A program made the translations under genes and the position numbers. Below are positions 7,257 to 61,719 of a stretch of 64,000 nt of DNA, one piece after another; position 1 is the stretch's first letter, and every line of letters begins with the position of its first letter. The notes under the pieces were generated by a model. It was not told the DNA's origin and ran no database searches. It saw only the letters and a list, made by a program, of their open reading frames with translations. This stretch comes from Mesorhizobium sp. (GTDB taxonomy: Bacteria > Pseudomonadota > Alphaproteobacteria > Rhizobiales > Rhizobiaceae). The stretch lies in assembly GCF_005063415.1 (NCBI RefSeq), contig NZ_SUEG01000001.1:62001-126000 (forward strand), written 5' to 3'.

Positions 7257-8645
7257 TTACTGCTGGACGGCGTAGCACTCGATCTTCTTCTTTTTCAAAG
7301 CGTTGCAGGCCTTCCAGGCAGAAGTCTTCGAACCGAAACCACCGAACCGGGCACGGTAGTAGGTGACACCGTCTTTATCGAAGGCGATGGTGAAACCGGA
7401 GGCATCGGCCAGAACGGAGGGCGCCTGCTTCGTCGCCTTGTCGAGGAAAGCCTTCGCTTCGGCCTGTTTTGGCGAAGAGGCGACCTGTATTGCCCAGCCG
7501 GATGGCACTGACGCCGTGCTGACCGGATCGACCTCTGCCGCCGGTTCGGCATAGGCTGCGGCGACCCGGGCTGTCGCCACGTCGTCCACCGTCGACACAG
7601 CCGTCGTCTTGACCCTCTTGGCCTGAACGACCGGAGTGGTTTCTTCAGCGATGGGCGCATTTTCCTCGACAAGGGAGGCAACGGCATCGTCGTCCGGCTT
7701 ACTGTCCGGTGTCGGCGCGTCATGTTTCGGTAGAAGCACCTTGGCCAAAGCTGAAATCGGATTGCCGCCACCAGCCTCGGCAATCAGCACGCCGCCGCCG
7801 CGCGACGAGGCCTTCGGCATGTAGGCATTGATCAACCCGGCCATCTGGCTGTCGCGGCTGCCGCCGGACCTGCCGCCCATGACCACCGCTACGATGCGCC
7901 GATCGCCATCCGAGACCGAGGAGACCAGATTGTAACCGGAGGCGCGGGTGTAACCGGTCTTGATGCCGTCGACGCCCTTGATGCGTCCGAGCAGACGATT
8001 GTGGCCGTTGATACGCTGCCGCCCATAAAGAAAGGAGCGCTGCGAGAAATAGCCGTAATATTGCGGAAAATGCTCTCTCAGGGCGATGCCGAGCATCGCC
8101 ATGTCGCGCGCGGTCGTGAACTGGCCGGGATCAGGCAAGCCGTTGGCGTTGCGGAAAACGGTTCCCCTCATGCCCAGCGCCCGCGCCTTGGCGGTCATCA
8201 TGCGGGCGAAATTGGCTTCATTGCCGCCGAGCATCTCGCCAAGCGCCGTTGCGGAATCGTTTGCCGATTTGGTCACCATCGACAGGATCGCGGTCTCGAC
8301 CGTGACCGAGCCGCCCCGCTTGACGCCGAGCTTCGTCGGCGGTTCGGCAGCGGCATTGGCCGAGAACACGACCGGGGAATTCTTGCTGATCCTGCCCTTC
8401 GCCAATGCCTCGAACGTCAGATAGAGCGTCATCATCTTGGTAAGCGACGCCGGATAGCGCCGGCCATCGGCATCCGACGAATAAAGCACCTTGCCGGTCT
8501 TGGCATCGATGACGATGGCCGCCGACTTGGCCGCCATGGATGAAGCCGCGTCCGCGACGACGAAGCTCATCGCCATAGCGAGGATCATGATCGTTTTGAG
8601 GGGGGACGCGGATTTGGAAACGAAGCCCGACAACGCCTTACGCAC
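7257..8645 (-). CDS. D-alanyl-D-alanine carboxypeptidase with C-terminal SPOR domain
   Basis: A 462-residue penicillin-binding protein of the peptidase S11 (DacA/DacF) family that trims the terminal D-Ala of peptidoglycan stem peptides in the periplasm. A signal peptide covers residues 1 to about 38. The active-site motifs are complete: SLTK at 67-70, SAN at 127-129 and KTG at 229-231. A Pro/Ala-rich linker (about 290-380) leads to a SPOR domain at about 385-462, including the repeated 'WAIQVASSP' and 'YYRARFGGF' strands. SPOR domains bind denuded glycan at the division septum, which suggests septal targeting. The 3' end faces the J-domain gene. Confidence 0.92.
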   Translation of the reverse strand: MRKALSGFVSKSASPLKTIMILAMAMSFVVADAASSMAAKSAAIVIDAKTGKVLYSSDADGRRYPASLTKMMTLYLTFEALAKGRISKNSPVVFSANAAAEPPTKLGVKRGGSVTVETAILSMVTKSANDSATALGEMLGGNEANFARMMTAKARALGMRGTVFRNANGLPDPGQFTTARDMAMLGIALREHFPQYYGYFSQRSFLYGRQRINGHNRLLGRIKGVDGIKTGYTRASGYNLVSSVSDGDRRIVAVVMGGRSGGSRDSQMAGLINAYMPKASSRGGGVLIAEAGGGNPISALAKVLLPKHDAPTPDSKPDDDAVASLVEENAPIAEETTPVVQAKRVKTTAVSTVDDVATARVAAAYAEPAAEVDPVSTASVPSGWAIQVASSPKQAEAKAFLDKATKQAPSVLADASGFTIAFDKDGVTYYRARFGGFGSKTSAWKACNALKKKKIECYAVQQ

Positions 8646-8841
8646 TGATAGTTCCTTTGAATTTCCGTTGCCTTGGAGGCGGCAAAGGGTCCTGCCTCAT
8701 CTTCGGCCACGCTAACGCGGGCAGCGTTACCAATCCGTTTATGGTAACCGCCGCGTTCACCATTTTCTGCGGGATTGAGCTTCTCTTTATTCGAATCTTA
8801 GCGATTGCCGGCAGCTCACGATGCGCATTGCCGCGGGAATC

Positions 8842-55583: not shown

Positions 55584-56426
55584 TTATCGGCCGGACGATG
55601 CCGTGGCTGCGATATTGAGCTTCGCCGCTGATTCGGTCGCTGCTTGCTTGCCGGCCGGTCGAGCACCGGCCACCGCCGACGTCTCGAAACTGGCCTCGAG
55701 CCAGGCTATTGCGCCGGTCACGTCGTCGAGGGCATAGGTTGCGGCCGTCGGTCCGTTCGGCTTCACGCGGATGGAGATGCCGCCAATTTCGTTGATCGCC
55801 TCGAAACCGTGTTCGTCCGATGTATCGTCTCCGAGGAATATCGGCCGCCGGCCGACAAAGGGCGGAATGTCCATAAAACGCCTGATGGCAGCACCTTTGA
55901 CGGCTTCCAAAGGCATCAGCTCGACGCCGGCATTTCCCGGAAGCACCCGATAACCCTTCGGAAGCCGGGCCAATGCCTGTTCGACCAGCTGGATTGCAGG
56001 CGCAAGCAGTTGCGGTGCTGCTCTTGTATGAACGGCAAGGACCGGCCCCTTGCGTTCGACATAGACCTTGCCGCTGCCCAGTTCGGCCTCGATCTCGTCG
56101 GCAAGGGCGGCGATGTCGGCCGGCGCGTCGGCGGCATCGATCGGACCGCTCGGCGTCAGCCGATGCTCCAGCCCATACAGTCCGGCGATCCGCAGCTTCA
56201 GCGGATGGAACAGCTTGTCCACGGCGGGGATCGATCGGCCGGTGATGAAGGCGACCGCACCATCCAGCCGCCGCTCGATGTGTCCAAGCAGGTTGCGCAA
56301 TTCCTCGCCGACGAACACCGCGTCGGGATGGGCAGCGTGTTCCAGCAGGGTTCCGTCTATGTCGAGGAAGAGCGCCCATTGTCCTTCCGGCAGGTTCAAC
56401 GCCGGCGGTTGTTCAAAGCTTTTCAC
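55584..56426 (-). CDS. otsB: trehalose-6-phosphate phosphatase (OtsB-like HAD phosphatase)
   Basis: A 280-residue HAD-superfamily phosphatase. Motif I is FLDIDGTLLEHA with nucleophile Asp22 and acid Asp24, motif II lies in AFITGRSIPAVD, and motif IV is FLGDDTSDEHGFEAINEIGG. This matches OtsB, which dephosphorylates trehalose 6-phosphate. Its ATG overlaps the stop of the GT20 synthase gene (ATGA), so the two are made together. Last gene of the four-gene sugar cluster. Confidence 0.92.
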   Translation of the reverse strand: MKSFEQPPALNLPEGQWALFLDIDGTLLEHAAHPDAVFVGEELRNLLGHIERRLDGAVAFITGRSIPAVDKLFHPLKLRIAGLYGLEHRLTPSGPIDAADAPADIAALADEIEAELGSGKVYVERKGPVLAVHTRAAPQLLAPAIQLVEQALARLPKGYRVLPGNAGVELMPLEAVKGAAIRRFMDIPPFVGRRPIFLGDDTSDEHGFEAINEIGGISIRVKPNGPTAATYALDDVTGAIAWLEASFETSAVAGARPAGKQAATESAAKLNIAATASSGR

Positions 56427-58204
56427 GATGCTGCCTTCCGTGCCCGCTCGAACATCGAGATGACGTTGTTGGTGTTCGATGGCGGGCGCTCGCCGGTTCC
56501 GGTCACCCTGTCGAGATCGCCGCGTTTGCGCAGGCGCGCGGCATCCAGCAGCATGCTGCCGGCCCAGCGGTAGACGTTGTTGTCGCGGACCATCTCGCGC
56601 ATCGGCCGCAAACGCTCGCGCTGCTCATCCGGCGTCATCGTCAGCGCCTGCAACAGCGCCTCGCTCATCATGGCCGCATCGTAGGGGTTGACGATCAGTG
56701 CTTCCAGCAATTCGCGTGAGGCGCCGGCAAAGGTGCTGAGCAAAAGCACGCCCTGTTCGTCGTCGCGCGCCGCGACGAATTCCTTGGCGACAAGGTTCAT
56801 GCCGTCATGCAGGCTGGTGACCATGCAGATGTCGGCGGCGCGATAGACCTCGTAGACCTGCTCCTGCCGATGATGTTCGGCGACCATCAGGATAGGGCTG
56901 TATGTCTCGCTGCCATAACGCCGGTTGAGCTCCTCGGCATAGCGACGGCATTCGTCATGGAGTTGCTGGTAGGCGGGCAATGTCCCCCGGCTCGGCGCGG
57001 CGATCTGCAGGAAAACCACCTTGCCTATCCATTCGGGATATCTCGTGAACAATTCGTCCAAGGCATGGAAGCGATCGAGAATGCCTTTCGTGTAGTCGAG
57101 GCGCTCGACGCCAACGCATAGTTTGGTATCCGTAGACAGGCCGAATCTGTCGCGTACGCTGGCGCGGCACTCCTCCACAGACGGCAGTTTTGCCAGCAAT
57201 TGGGCCGGCCATTCTATGGAAATGGGATAGGCGTGGACCAACGTGGTCTGCCCACCATAGGAGATTGCCGCGTCTGCCCGTTCGATCCGGCTCTCCAGAA
57301 AGCGGTCGACACTTTCGGTGAAGTTGTTGGCATGGAATTGGGTATGAAAGCCGATGATCGAACTGCCGAGCAGTCCTTCCAGGATCCGCTCACGCCACGG
57401 ACAGATGCTGAACACTTCCGAATTGGGCCACGGGATATGCCAGAAGGTGATGACTATCGCGTCCGGCAGGCGCTGGCGAATCATGCGCGGCAGCAGCGCA
57501 AAATGGTAGTCCTGCACCAGCACGATCGGCCGTTCGTTGCGGGCTTCGGCAACCACCGTATCGGCGAATTTGCGGTTGACGGCCTCGTAGGCGTCCCAGT
57601 CCGAGGCGCGAAACACGGGGCGGGTGAAGGCAATATGGCAAAGCGGCCATAGGCCCTCATTGGCGAAGCCCAGATAATAGCCCTGATATTCCTCCTCCGT
57701 CAGCCAGACCCTGCGCAGCGTGTAGGACGGATTGCCTGGCGGCACCTGCACCCGGTCGTCTTTGTCGACGGTGAGGCGGTCTGCCGTGCCGCCGCCATAG
57801 GCGATCCAGGTGCCGGCACAGGCGCGGGTGATGGGCTCGAGTGCCGAAACCAGCCCGCTGGCCGGCACCAAAAGTTGCACCCCGTCATCCTTGATGTTGT
57901 GGATGTAGGGTTCGCGGTTGGACACCACGATGACCTGTGCGTCCGGCAGGTCGTCGGCCAGGATCTTGCGCAAAGTGTCGGGCGACCACGTGACCAGTGC
58001 CGCATCGGCCGACTGGCCGTTCTTTTCGAACTCGCGCAGCACCTTGCGTGCCGCTTCCGATGCGACATCCTCGCTCGGCGTGTATGCGGCCGCCGTTGCG
58101 CGGCCGCGACGCTGGCGGGATATCGATAGGAGAATGGCAAAAGCGGAAAAGCCAAAACTTGCGATCAGCAAAACCCAGAGCAGGTTTACAGTATAATCTG
58201 ACAT
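56423..58204 (-). CDS. otsA: membrane-anchored GT20 synthase, trehalose-6-phosphate synthase-like
   Basis: A 593-residue glycosyltransferase, about 120 longer than E. coli OtsA. Residues about 8-28 form a single membrane helix, followed by a charged linker, and the GT20 domain begins near 89 ([12 protein letters not shown]). Catalytic and donor residues are kept: [23 protein letters not shown] (Arg, Lys) and [15 protein letters not shown]. The usual N-terminal GGL loop instead reads [11 protein letters not shown]. Coupling with an OtsB-like phosphatase supports trehalose synthesis, but another glucosyl-sugar product is possible. A perfect EcfG-type promoter lies about 100 bases upstream. Confidence 0.88.
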
Positions 58205-58306
58205 GGAATGTGATCTCGCCTCCGGCCAGCTGATAGCCGTTTTTTATTTGTTTTCTGGTTCGCGGCCGTGTGACAACGACAGCGTTGCCCAGCCGCCCAT
58301 TTTTGC

Positions 58307-58331
58307 AACGCACAAAGAGGCTATCGGTTCC
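58307..58331 (-). promoter_or_regulatory. candidate EcfG (general stress response) promoter of otsA
   Basis: On the minus strand, GGAAC (58331-58327), 16 bases, then CGTT (58310-58307), an exact match to the alphaproteobacterial EcfG/RpoE2 consensus GGAAC-N16/17-CGTT. It lies 103 bases before the otsA start. Its left flank is in the non-coding gap after the glycosidase gene. Confidence 0.7.
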
Positions 58332-58382
58332 GGACGATTGCAATGCCGCGCGTCATTTTCGATGCGCCGCAGCGCGGCGGCA

Positions 58383-60545
58383 TCAAGTGCGCACGATGAG
58401 CGGCACCATCCCCTCATACCGATCGGCGAGAAAGGCGACGACCCGGTCGCCGACACGCTGGAATGTGAGGTCGACCACTGTCGAGCCGACACCCAGATGC
58501 CGCAATGTCAGCGTGTCGATGCCGATCGGCAGCCTTGGGCGGGTGACCCGGATTTCGCCGTTCCAGCCGTCGATTTCGAGCCCAAGGCAGGCCTGCATCA
58601 GCATGAAGGCCGATCCCGCTGACCAGGCTTGCGGCAGGCACGCGACGGGATAGGCGATCGGCGCTTCGCCTGGCGACCGGGTAAAGCCGCAGAACAGTTC
58701 CGGCAGCCGCATGTTGAAATGGACAGCCGATTCAAACGTGCCGCTCATCAGCCGGACCACGCTGTCGCGGACGCCATAACGTGCCAAGCCGGCACCGCAC
58801 ATGGCGGTGTCGTGCGGCCAGATCGAACCATTGTGGTAGGACATCGGGTTGAAGAATATCGCATCGTCGGCCAGCGTCCTCACTCCCCAACCAGAGTGGA
58901 ACGACGCGGAGAGCAGCTGATCGGCGACCATCTGCGCCCGTTCCGGCTCGGGCAGCCCGACAAAGAGAAGATGGCCGGCATTCGACGTCCGTACCTTGCA
59001 GAGCTCGCCTGCACCATCGATCGCCAGTGCATAGAAATTGAGATCGTCCATCCAGAAATGGCGTTCCACCGCGGCGCGCATGGTTTCGGCGCGTTCCTCC
59101 CAATGATCGGCCTTGTCGTCCTCGCCGCGGCGGCGGGCGAGCGCTGCCAGCCCACGGAACGCGGCAAAGACGTAGCCTTGCACCTCGACTAGAGCGATCG
59201 GCCCCTTGGGCATGCGGCCATCGGCATGGAAGACGGAATCGAAACTGTCCTTCCAGCCCTGGTTGGCGAGGCCGGTCTCGGCGCCGCGCTGGTAGGTAAC
59301 GAAGCCGGTCGCGCGGCTTGTCTCCTCCGTCCATTCGGCCGCTGCACAGAGCGATGGCCACAGACTGTCGACAAACGCCATGTCGCCGGTTCGATCCGCA
59401 TAGGCGCAAGCGAGATGAATGTAGAGCGGCGTGGTATCGACACCGCCGTAATAGCGGCCGAACGGGAGCTCCCGCAGCGCCGCCATCTCGCCCTTGCGGG
59501 TCTCGTGCATGATCTTGCCCGGCTGCGAATCGCTGAACGGCGACGTTTCGGTTGCCTGATGCTGGGCGAGAAAGGCGAGTACGCCGCGCGCCAGCCCAGG
59601 ATTCAACCACAGCATCTGCAGTGCGGAAATTACCCCGTCACGGCCAAATGCCGTCGAGAACCAGGGTATGCCGGCATAGGGGTAAGGTCCGGTTGCAAGC
59701 TCGGTGGTCAGCAGCGCCACGTCCGCGCGCGCGCGTTCGATCCAGTCGTTGAAGACGCGGCCGGAGCTGTGAACCGTCGCACCGTGGCGGCGTTTGGCGC
59801 GCATGCCGAAGCGAGCGCGGGCGGCGGCAGCCCGAAAACGGTCGCGGTCGGGTGTCTCCGCCACTTCCGGGCCGACCTCGATATAGAGGACCTCGCTGCT
59901 GCGCTTCGTCACCGCAACCAGGAAATCCGCACGGCTGGGGGTCAAATTGTCCGGCGCCTGCGAGAACGAGATCGCCGACAGGCGTACGAGCTGGTCCAGC
60001 CCGTCATATCGAAGCACCACGGATGTCGGGCTGGTCTCGGCGGCGTGGGCTATTCCGCGCTTGAGCCGGGTCGAACCGCGCACCTCGAACATGTCACGGA
60101 AATCTGCTGCGAAATGCAAGGAAACCCGAATGGCCGACGATTCCTGGCTGTAGTTGGAAAGGGTGATGCGCTCGAACAGCCGGTCCTGCCAAAGCAGCCT
60201 GACACGTTCTATGTGGATCGCGCCCTGCGGAATGTCGCGACCACCGACACTCTGGATTGGCAGATTGGTCAGGTTCGAGGTGAAAAGCACATTGTCCTGG
60301 CTGAGCGATGCGCCTAGCAACGACATTTGCCGGCCACCGACCGTCAGCCGGAATTCCGAAAGCACACGCGTATCGTCTCGGAAAAAACCGTCGCCGGCGC
60401 CGCGGATGTCGCCATAGGCGTCGGCCACCGCGAAGCAGTCGCCTTGCTTGAGGGCGAACAGCCGGTGCGGCTCCCGGGGCGCAACCTCGTCGAGGGAGGC
60501 AAGGGCTACGGCGGGATCAAGCTTACGCTCGTCGAGTTGATTCAT
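58383..60545 (-). CDS. glycogen-debranching-type glycosidase (amylo-alpha-1,6-glucosidase family)
   Basis: A 720-residue protein. The N-terminal GDE_N domain (about 20-220) shows FALKQGDCFAVADAYGDIRGAGDGFFRDDTR. A C-terminal (alpha/alpha)6-barrel of the glycogen-debranching family has IPWFSTAFGRDGVISAL, the NQGWKDSFDSVFHADG stretch with candidate acid residues, and MSYHNGSIWPHD near the end. No signal peptide. Likely acts on an alpha-glucan or alpha-glucoside. It lies 47 bases after the GT4 gene and 178 before otsA on the same strand. Substrate unknown. Confidence 0.85.
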   Translation of the reverse strand: MNQLDERKLDPAVALASLDEVAPREPHRLFALKQGDCFAVADAYGDIRGAGDGFFRDDTRVLSEFRLTVGGRQMSLLGASLSQDNVLFTSNLTNLPIQSVGGRDIPQGAIHIERVRLLWQDRLFERITLSNYSQESSAIRVSLHFAADFRDMFEVRGSTRLKRGIAHAAETSPTSVVLRYDGLDQLVRLSAISFSQAPDNLTPSRADFLVAVTKRSSEVLYIEVGPEVAETPDRDRFRAAAARARFGMRAKRRHGATVHSSGRVFNDWIERARADVALLTTELATGPYPYAGIPWFSTAFGRDGVISALQMLWLNPGLARGVLAFLAQHQATETSPFSDSQPGKIMHETRKGEMAALRELPFGRYYGGVDTTPLYIHLACAYADRTGDMAFVDSLWPSLCAAAEWTEETSRATGFVTYQRGAETGLANQGWKDSFDSVFHADGRMPKGPIALVEVQGYVFAAFRGLAALARRRGEDDKADHWEERAETMRAAVERHFWMDDLNFYALAIDGAGELCKVRTSNAGHLLFVGLPEPERAQMVADQLLSASFHSGWGVRTLADDAIFFNPMSYHNGSIWPHDTAMCGAGLARYGVRDSVVRLMSGTFESAVHFNMRLPELFCGFTRSPGEAPIAYPVACLPQAWSAGSAFMLMQACLGLEIDGWNGEIRVTRPRLPIGIDTLTLRHLGVGSTVVDLTFQRVGDRVVAFLADRYEGMVPLIVRT

Positions 60546-60592: not shown

Positions 60593-61654
60593 TCAGGATG
60601 CTCTCGCTTCACCGGGAGCGCTGATCAGGCGCGAATAGGCAGCTACATAGTCGTGGGCCATTCTCGTGGCAGAAAAACGGTTTTCGAATACGGCTCTCAC
60701 CTGTCGCCGGTCGAGGCGCAGCAATTCCGGTATCGAGGCGACCGCAGCATCGACCGTATCGACAAGGAAACCGGTCACGCCGTGGTCGATGATTTCCGGC
60801 AGGGCGCCGCATTTCCAGGCGATCACCGGCGTGCCGCAGGCCATAGCCTCTATCGCGGCAAGACCGAACGGCTCCGGCCAATCGATCGGAAACAGCAGGC
60901 CGGCCGCCTTGCCGAGGAATTCCGCTTTTCTGTCCTCTTCGATCTCGCCGATATAGTCGACGCGGTCGCCGTCGATCAGCGGCTCGACCGTATCGTGGAA
61001 AAAGGCGCGGTCGTCATCGCCGATCTTTGCCGCAAGCTTCAGTTTCAGCCCGGAGCGCAAGGCGATCTCGATGGCGCGGTCCGGGCGCTTGTCGCGCGAC
61101 AGCCGGCCGAGAAAGGCCAGATACGGCTCGTCTGCATCCGTCTCGAAAGTCGGCTCGTACATATTGATCGGCAGCCCGTGATGGATGGTCGCCAGCCAAT
61201 TGGCCCTGGGTAACCCGGTTCTCTGGCTGCGCGAAATGGAGATCATCGGAAAGCGCGGAAAACGCTCGTAGGCCGGGGCCAAGTCGACATAGTCGAGCCT
61301 GCCATGCGGTGTCGTCACCGTCCGGTCGGGCATGTGTTCGAAGAAAGGAAAATGCAGGAAGTGGCTGAGATGGAAATGGATAATGTCGAACTGTTGCGCT
61401 CGGTTCCTCACCTCGGCCAGCATCGCCAGATGCGCCGCGGTTTCGGATTTGTGCGGGCGCGGATCGAGACGGAGCGCCCGCTCGCGACACGCTACCAATT
61501 TCGCCGACGTCTTGGTATCGCCGCTGGCGAACAGGGTCACGTCATGGCCAAGCTCGACCAATCCCTCGGTCAGATAGGAGACGATGCGCTCCGTCCCTCC
61601 ATAGAACCGGGGTGGCACGGATTCATGGAGCGGCGCCACATGGGCTATTCTCAT
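60593..61654 (-). CDS. glycosyltransferase family 4 protein
   Basis: A 353-residue GT-B glycosyltransferase. The acceptor half opens MRIAHVAPLHESVPPRFYGGTERIV, and the donor half has YLAFLGRLSRDKRPDRAIEIA and the E-x7-E motif in WPEPFGLAAIEAMACGTPVIA. Members use nucleotide-sugars, often UDP- or GDP-linked. It is the first gene of the leftward cluster ending in otsB. Its product may be the sugar acted on by the next genes. A near-EcfG site lies upstream. Confidence 0.9.
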   Translation of the reverse strand: MRIAHVAPLHESVPPRFYGGTERIVSYLTEGLVELGHDVTLFASGDTKTSAKLVACRERALRLDPRPHKSETAAHLAMLAEVRNRAQQFDIIHFHLSHFLHFPFFEHMPDRTVTTPHGRLDYVDLAPAYERFPRFPMISISRSQRTGLPRANWLATIHHGLPINMYEPTFETDADEPYLAFLGRLSRDKRPDRAIEIALRSGLKLKLAAKIGDDDRAFFHDTVEPLIDGDRVDYIGEIEEDRKAEFLGKAAGLLFPIDWPEPFGLAAIEAMACGTPVIAWKCGALPEIIDHGVTGFLVDTVDAAVASIPELLRLDRRQVRAVFENRFSATRMAHDYVAAYSRLISAPGEARAS

Positions 61655-61694: not shown

Positions 61695-61719
61695 AATGCA
61701 TCAGCCGCGCTAACGTTCC
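61695..61719 (-). promoter_or_regulatory. weak EcfG-like site upstream of the GT4 gene
   Basis: GGAAC (61719-61715), 16 bases, CATT (61698-61695) on the minus strand, one mismatch in the -10. It lies 41 bases before the GT4 start. Suggestive only. Confidence 0.35.

Follow-up and report, generated by a model that had tools for sequence, protein, structure and literature searches.

The window, a 64,000-nucleotide stretch of Mesorhizobium DNA, holds directly 5' of otsA a site that is in all likelihood an EcfG (ECF15, RpoE2/SigT-like) promoter, predicted to start the otsA-otsB transcript. A pattern search of the window located GGAACCGATAGCCTCTTTGTGCGTT on the minus strand (58331-58307), an exact GGAAC-N16-CGTT, which bears out the first-pass annotation that such a motif stands in non-coding DNA before otsA. 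The glycosidase stop (58383) and the otsA ATG (58204) are separated by 178 bases, and the site lies in this gap, 51 bases after the stop and 102 bases 5' of the ATG. Its boxes and spacer agree with the definition of an EcfG (ECF15) promoter (GGAAC and CGTT separated by 16-17 bases, here 16), as does its non-coding, same-strand position shortly 5' of the gene. Strong support for the further proposal of that annotation, that otsAB has a general-stress promoter, comes from the conservation of the site, from the occurrence of the motif at nepR-ecfG and phyR as well, and from its genome-wide placement. We regard the promoter as a well-supported new example, in Mesorhizobium, of a known type of control; trehalose synthesis would be placed under the general stress response via a specific promoter. 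In Bradyrhizobium, osmotic tolerance and normal nodulation are reported to depend on trehalose synthesis (PMC8092242). The relevant features of the window are:

55584..56426, minus strand: otsB, trehalose-6-phosphate phosphatase (TIGR00685, 106.7 bits, cut-off 68.05; PF02358)
56423..58204, minus strand: otsA-like trehalose-6-phosphate synthase, GT20, 593 aa (PF00982, 411.6 bits)
58297..58300, minus strand: predicted region of transcription start, placed 7-10 bases past CGTT by the spacing given in the first-pass annotation, with a leader of about 93-96 bases
58307..58331, minus strand: predicted EcfG-type promoter of otsAB (-35 GGAAC 58331-58327, 16-base spacer, -10 CGTT 58310-58307)
58383..60545, minus strand: glycosidase of glycogen-debranching type, GDE_N_bis and MGH1-like (PF14742, PF22422)
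60593..61654, minus strand: GT4-type glycosyltransferase, opening the upstream unit (PF00534, PF13692, PF13439)
61695..61719, minus strand: predicted second EcfG-like promoter, GGAAC-N16-CATT, 40 bases 5' of the GT4 ATG

The window OtsA is the sole PF00982 match in the genome, and the solved structures closest to it are trehalose-phosphate synthases. Its GT20 domain is clear; its score against the TIGR02400 OtsA equivalog model lies under the cut-off (440.2 versus 564.85 bits). An N-terminal hydrophobic helix (residues 8-26, mean hydropathy 2.47) precedes the GT20 domain, so the protein may be membrane-anchored, and a hydrophobic stretch stands before this domain in 11/11 sampled relatives. 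Because otsB overlaps the end of otsA by 4 bases, the two genes are probably translated together. For TreY and TreS the genome gave no match over the cut-off, only weaker ones, and OtsAB may thus be its main trehalose route.

Phosphorylated PhyR sequesters NepR and thereby frees EcfG. We propose that, on stress, activated PhyR would titrate NepR, that the freed EcfG would raise trehalose synthesis and that EcfG polymerase, starting at about 58297-58300, would yield an otsAB message. Which EcfG paralogue acts, and any metabolic tie between the gene pairs of the block, are parts of this scheme that we infer. The fold of the predicted otsA leader (58299-58205) is unremarkable (z -1.49). At more than 90 bases, this leader exceeds that of most of 48 promoter-like genomic sites, gene starts there being those of a simple caller.

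Conservation of the site upstream of otsA

OtsA relatives were taken from genome contigs as 80 loci, the best 80 of 584. The exact N16 motif stands 5' of otsA in 30/80 (L009-L036, L040 and L059), hereafter the Mesorhizobium-type loci; 27 of their records are named Mesorhizobium, three bear broader names, and two of the loci share one assembly. Counted from where the otsA match begins, the motif's positions there range from -106 to -204. When the 30 loci are aligned with the motif as anchor, only the nine core columns out of 105 are invariant; the flanks vary, and so does the spacer, whose 16 columns are free of gaps. This invariance is no artefact of anchoring, since the motif is present in all 30 loci, and both boxes are also invariant when 16 sequences are aligned by MAFFT. 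Across the 392,275 bases of these loci, both strands included, there are two other exact sites versus 10 reversed-pattern matches. When 390 bases around the start were considered in 37 loci, the exact motif accompanied 33/37 otsA genes and 2/276 genes other than otsA and GT4. Many of the Mesorhizobium-type loci also show a short A-rich block 5-7 bases 5' of the -35 GGAAC, one column being A in 26/30; this block could serve as an upstream promoter element.

Among the 50 more distant OtsA loci, none has the exact motif within 500 bases 5' of the match and none has GGAAC-N15-18-NGTT in the 590 bases searched; a one-mismatch site occurs in 6/50. The negative result is weakened because the true gene start may sit well 5' of the match, and at one distant locus (L048) an exact site is found at -984 when 1500 bases are searched.

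A family search found GT20 proteins in 61 of 121 genomes and returned 30 loci. Short OtsA proteins, 29-36% identical to the window OtsA, are encoded at 29 of them, and an upstream GGAAC-N15-17-CGTT or -CATT at 3/29 of these short-type loci, one of the three sites lying inside a called upstream gene. The exact motif is present at one long-type locus (L284) among the 30. Seven long-type loci (64-77% identical), picked for their frame length and profile start, were fetched; the gene of L284 is among them, and one site is nearly identical to that of L035. All seven carry GGAAC-N16/17-NGTT 5' of otsA, three of them in exact form, the background of this relaxed pattern being 12/276 other genes in the loci. 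At two (L295 and L296) the glycosyltransferase-glycosidase pair was not found and a one-mismatch site before otsA is kept. An EcfG link general to rhizobial otsA was rejected on the 3/29 short-type loci, which together with the 0/50 distant relatives points to a lineage-specific link. Judging from the NGTT sites at 7/7 long-type loci versus the sites at 3/29 short-type loci, the promoter travels with the long OtsA type and not with otsA genes generally.

These results qualify the earlier statement that trehalose genes are known members of the general stress regulon in rhizobia. It holds for Bradyrhizobium diazoefficiens, in which trehalose-6-phosphate pathway genes are described as EcfG-controlled (PMC8092242); it is too broad in view of Rhizobium etli, whose wild type is described as expressing otsA constitutively (PMC3188799), and of the short-type loci. 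The likeness to B. diazoefficiens is drawn at the level of the pathway, and the arrangements differ, with otsCB and otsA there (PMC8092242) and glycosyltransferase, glycosidase, otsA and otsB with two predicted promoters here. The R. etli EcfG1 regulon resembles the present case in its motif, GGAAC-N16-CGTT with identical spacing, and in a primary sigma factor encoded in the nepR-phyR region (PMC3892343); its target gene differs, given the constitutive otsA described for the wild type of that species (PMC3188799). Against stress control of otsA one may also cite a table for Mesorhizobium alhagi under salt, in which two otsA genes are only slightly up, by 0.379 and 0.371 (p 0.13) (PMC4302635), and a start-site study of S. 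meliloti whose main text leaves otsA unnamed (PMC3616915). Among the titles listed by literature searches, several of them capped, none dealt with Mesorhizobium otsA as an EcfG target, which does not prove that such work is lacking.

The glycosyltransferase-glycosidase unit and its predicted promoter

The gene order of the window recurs around the 30 Mesorhizobium-type otsA genes: the glycosidase lies upstream in all 30 and the GT4 gene in 28 (contig ends are nearby in the other two), and otsB follows otsA in 28/30, the exceptions being L036 and L040. The second EcfG-like site, before the GT4 gene, departs from the consensus in its -10 box, which reads CATT in place of CGTT. GGAAC-N16/17-CATT precedes the GT4 gene in 27/28 Mesorhizobium-type loci, at -53 to -66 (N17 in five of them); L035 alone differs, with GCAAC-N16-CGTT at -57. 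The same pattern is found upstream of 2/276 other genes of the loci, and two Nitrospirillum loci that share the gene order both lack a site before GT4. A separate glycosidase promoter was rejected: the 200 bases upstream of the glycosidase hold no EcfG-like site with up to one mismatch in 28/29 loci, and a one-mismatch site in just one.

We suggest that the EcfG-like promoter with the CATT -10 box would start the upstream glycosyltransferase-glycosidase transcript, which would give the four-gene block two general-stress entry points. With a promoter of its own before otsAB and a related one before the glycosidase unit, both arms are probably stress-controlled. As to the separation of the two units, no terminator-like or sigma-70-like promoter site was found by pattern in 58150-58500. 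A terminator between the glycosidase and otsA was considered and discarded, none being found by pattern and the fold of the gap being unremarkable (z -1.12); with no terminator-like separator, part of otsAB expression may be read-through.

An alternative reading is that otsAB is transcribed mainly in this way, from the glycosyltransferase-glycosidase transcript, and that the internal site plays a minor part. The common strand, the 178-base gap, the stretch lacking terminator-like and sigma-70-like sites and the conserved EcfG-like site of the upstream unit would all suit this reading. We nevertheless consider it unlikely, since the internal site has the exact consensus and is kept in 30/30 loci, and L295 and L296 still carry their one-mismatch site where the upstream pair was not found. 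The reading that we prefer, transcription of otsAB from its own EcfG promoter, agrees with one half of the first-pass claim that stress control of otsAB is independent of the glycosidase. The other half fares less well, given the conserved EcfG-like site of the glycosyltransferase-glycosidase pair and the lack of a terminator-like separator; otsAB and the glycosidase unit are probably co-regulated.

A table of EcfG-dependent genes of Sphingomonas melonis includes a 'Glycosyltransferase' (#1750) and 'Glycosidases' (#1751), the latter with GGAAC-N16-CGTT, and lists CATT variants (PMC6599016). These genes are likened to the window pair by name, and trehalose synthesis is differently organised in that species, where it proceeds via a malto-oligosyltrehalose synthase/trehalohydrolase cluster (PMC6599016). 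Our guess is that the glycosyltransferase and the glycosidase of the window could be linked to trehalose via glucan turnover.

Genome-wide placement of the motif

Bare counts carry little information. The window contains two matches to GGAAC-N15-18-CGTT versus 2.14 expected, and the genome 79 exact GGAAC-N16-CGTT sites versus 109 matches to the reversed pattern. Whole-genome totals were therefore rejected as evidence and, as they do not rise above the reversed control, only position and conservation discriminate. Stretches around all 79 exact sites were taken, genes were called by our own simple codon-usage script, and sites at most 300 bases 5' of a called start were defined as promoter-like. 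By this definition, 66/79 exact sites are intergenic and 48/79 promoter-like; the corresponding values for reversed-pattern matches in 40 control loci are 7/42 and 1/42. Of 4000 25-mers drawn at random from the control loci, 6.8% are promoter-like; relative to this rate the placement of the exact sites has a binomial p of about 1e-35. With an N17 spacer in place of N16, 11/35 examined sites are promoter-like.

A whole-genome scan for the motif, proposed in the first-pass annotation as a check, was thereby carried out. All 48 downstream proteins, OtsA included, were scanned against Pfam (14/48 without a match); behind the promoter-like sites stand NepR, PhyR, an HWE histidine kinase, a sigma factor passing a sigma-32 model, two Ku proteins, a ferritin-like protein, a PRC-barrel protein, DUF892, two CsbD and two DUF3606. 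NepR is over the cut-off of PF18557, and PhyR scores 385.1 bits against its family model NF006623 (cut-off 240). The ECF sigma gene adjoining nepR, whose best NCBIfam models are named just 'RNA polymerase sigma factor', is by its position the canonical ecfG. The genome thus encodes EcfG (by position), NepR and PhyR, as is required of a genome with EcfG promoters, and the exact CGTT motif precedes nepR-ecfG as well as phyR. From the genomic placement, the genes behind the sites and the nepR-ecfG position, GGAAC-N16-CGTT is very probably the working general-stress promoter motif of this genome.

GGAAC-like -35 boxes are known in several ECF groups, and ECF-like factors are numerous in the genome, where the EcfG2-type protein has 18 matches with E of at most 0.001. 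Both points would be compatible with use of the otsA site by an ECF sigma factor outside the EcfG group that likewise recognises a GGAAC -35 box. We hold this to be improbable, as the identical full motif lies at nepR-ecfG and phyR here and at nepR-ecfG1 in 7/8 relatives, and is the published EcfG motif (PMC3892343, PMC7083833). A functionless chance match, for which one could cite a bare pattern expected about twice per window and a genome total not above the reversed control, has a negligible likelihood and is already contradicted by retention of the site in 30/30 loci with two other matches in 392 kb.

Several further observations concern individual sites. The two Ku genes are separate (L117 and L102) and each has an exact EcfG-type site just 5', so double-strand break repair probably belongs to the EcfG regulon. 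Contig C396 (L091 and L092), 38 kb long, holds 12 of the 79 exact sites versus 0.49 expected; several cluster round nepR-ecfG-phyR as a general-stress island, and identical 25-mers occur at C396:7206 and C396:11802. Within the window, GGAAC-N15-CGTT at 8632-8655, with a spacer one base under the usual, lies 43 bases 5' of a gene (7257-8588) for a SPOR-domain D-alanyl-D-alanine carboxypeptidase.

CATT sites and EcfG paralogues

The genome encodes a second ECF sigma factor of ecfG2 type, 48% identical to EcfG over 138 residues. GGAAC-N16-CATT precedes its gene in 22/22 fetched genus loci, our own genome included (L208 and L303-L324), at least six more listed copies lying outside this sample. At nepR-ecfG1 loci the box is CGTT in 7/8, with none shown at L329. 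A CATT promoter common to all EcfG-like copies was ruled out by a third copy (C60:4595-5128, L105), where the 400 bases preceding the match are free of GGAAC.

In Sphingopyxis granuli, which likewise has a pair of ecfG paralogues, CATT is a natural -10 box of a promoter transcribed in vitro by both of them (PMC7083833). Mutation of CGTT to CATT lowered in vitro transcription, and the CATT promoter gave the largest EcfG2/EcfG1 ratio, 38.5-fold, although the paralogue names may not match those used here (PMC7083833). The ecfG2 gene of S. granuli is described as lacking the consensus in front of it (PMC7083833), whereas the second EcfG-type gene here has a conserved GGAAC-N16-CATT. For R. etli, no EcfG2 motif is reported as found (PMC3892343).

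The two arms of the sugar block are possibly controlled via different EcfG paralogues. A broader scheme, to which we give little credence at present, would divide the Mesorhizobium stress response into two promoter classes, CGTT (nepR-ecfG1, phyR and otsAB) and CATT (ecfG2 and the glycosyltransferase-glycosidase unit); each paralogue would prefer its own class, otsAB being served by EcfG1 and the glucan genes by EcfG2. With the conserved CGTT/CATT split one can ask directly if the -10 box decides which EcfG paralogue serves which part of the regulon. Across the genome, 17/51 GGAAC-N16-CATT sites are promoter-like (p of about 2e-8 versus the random rate), and such sites precede genes for apparent PRC-barrel and CBS proteins, names that come from reading the sequences.
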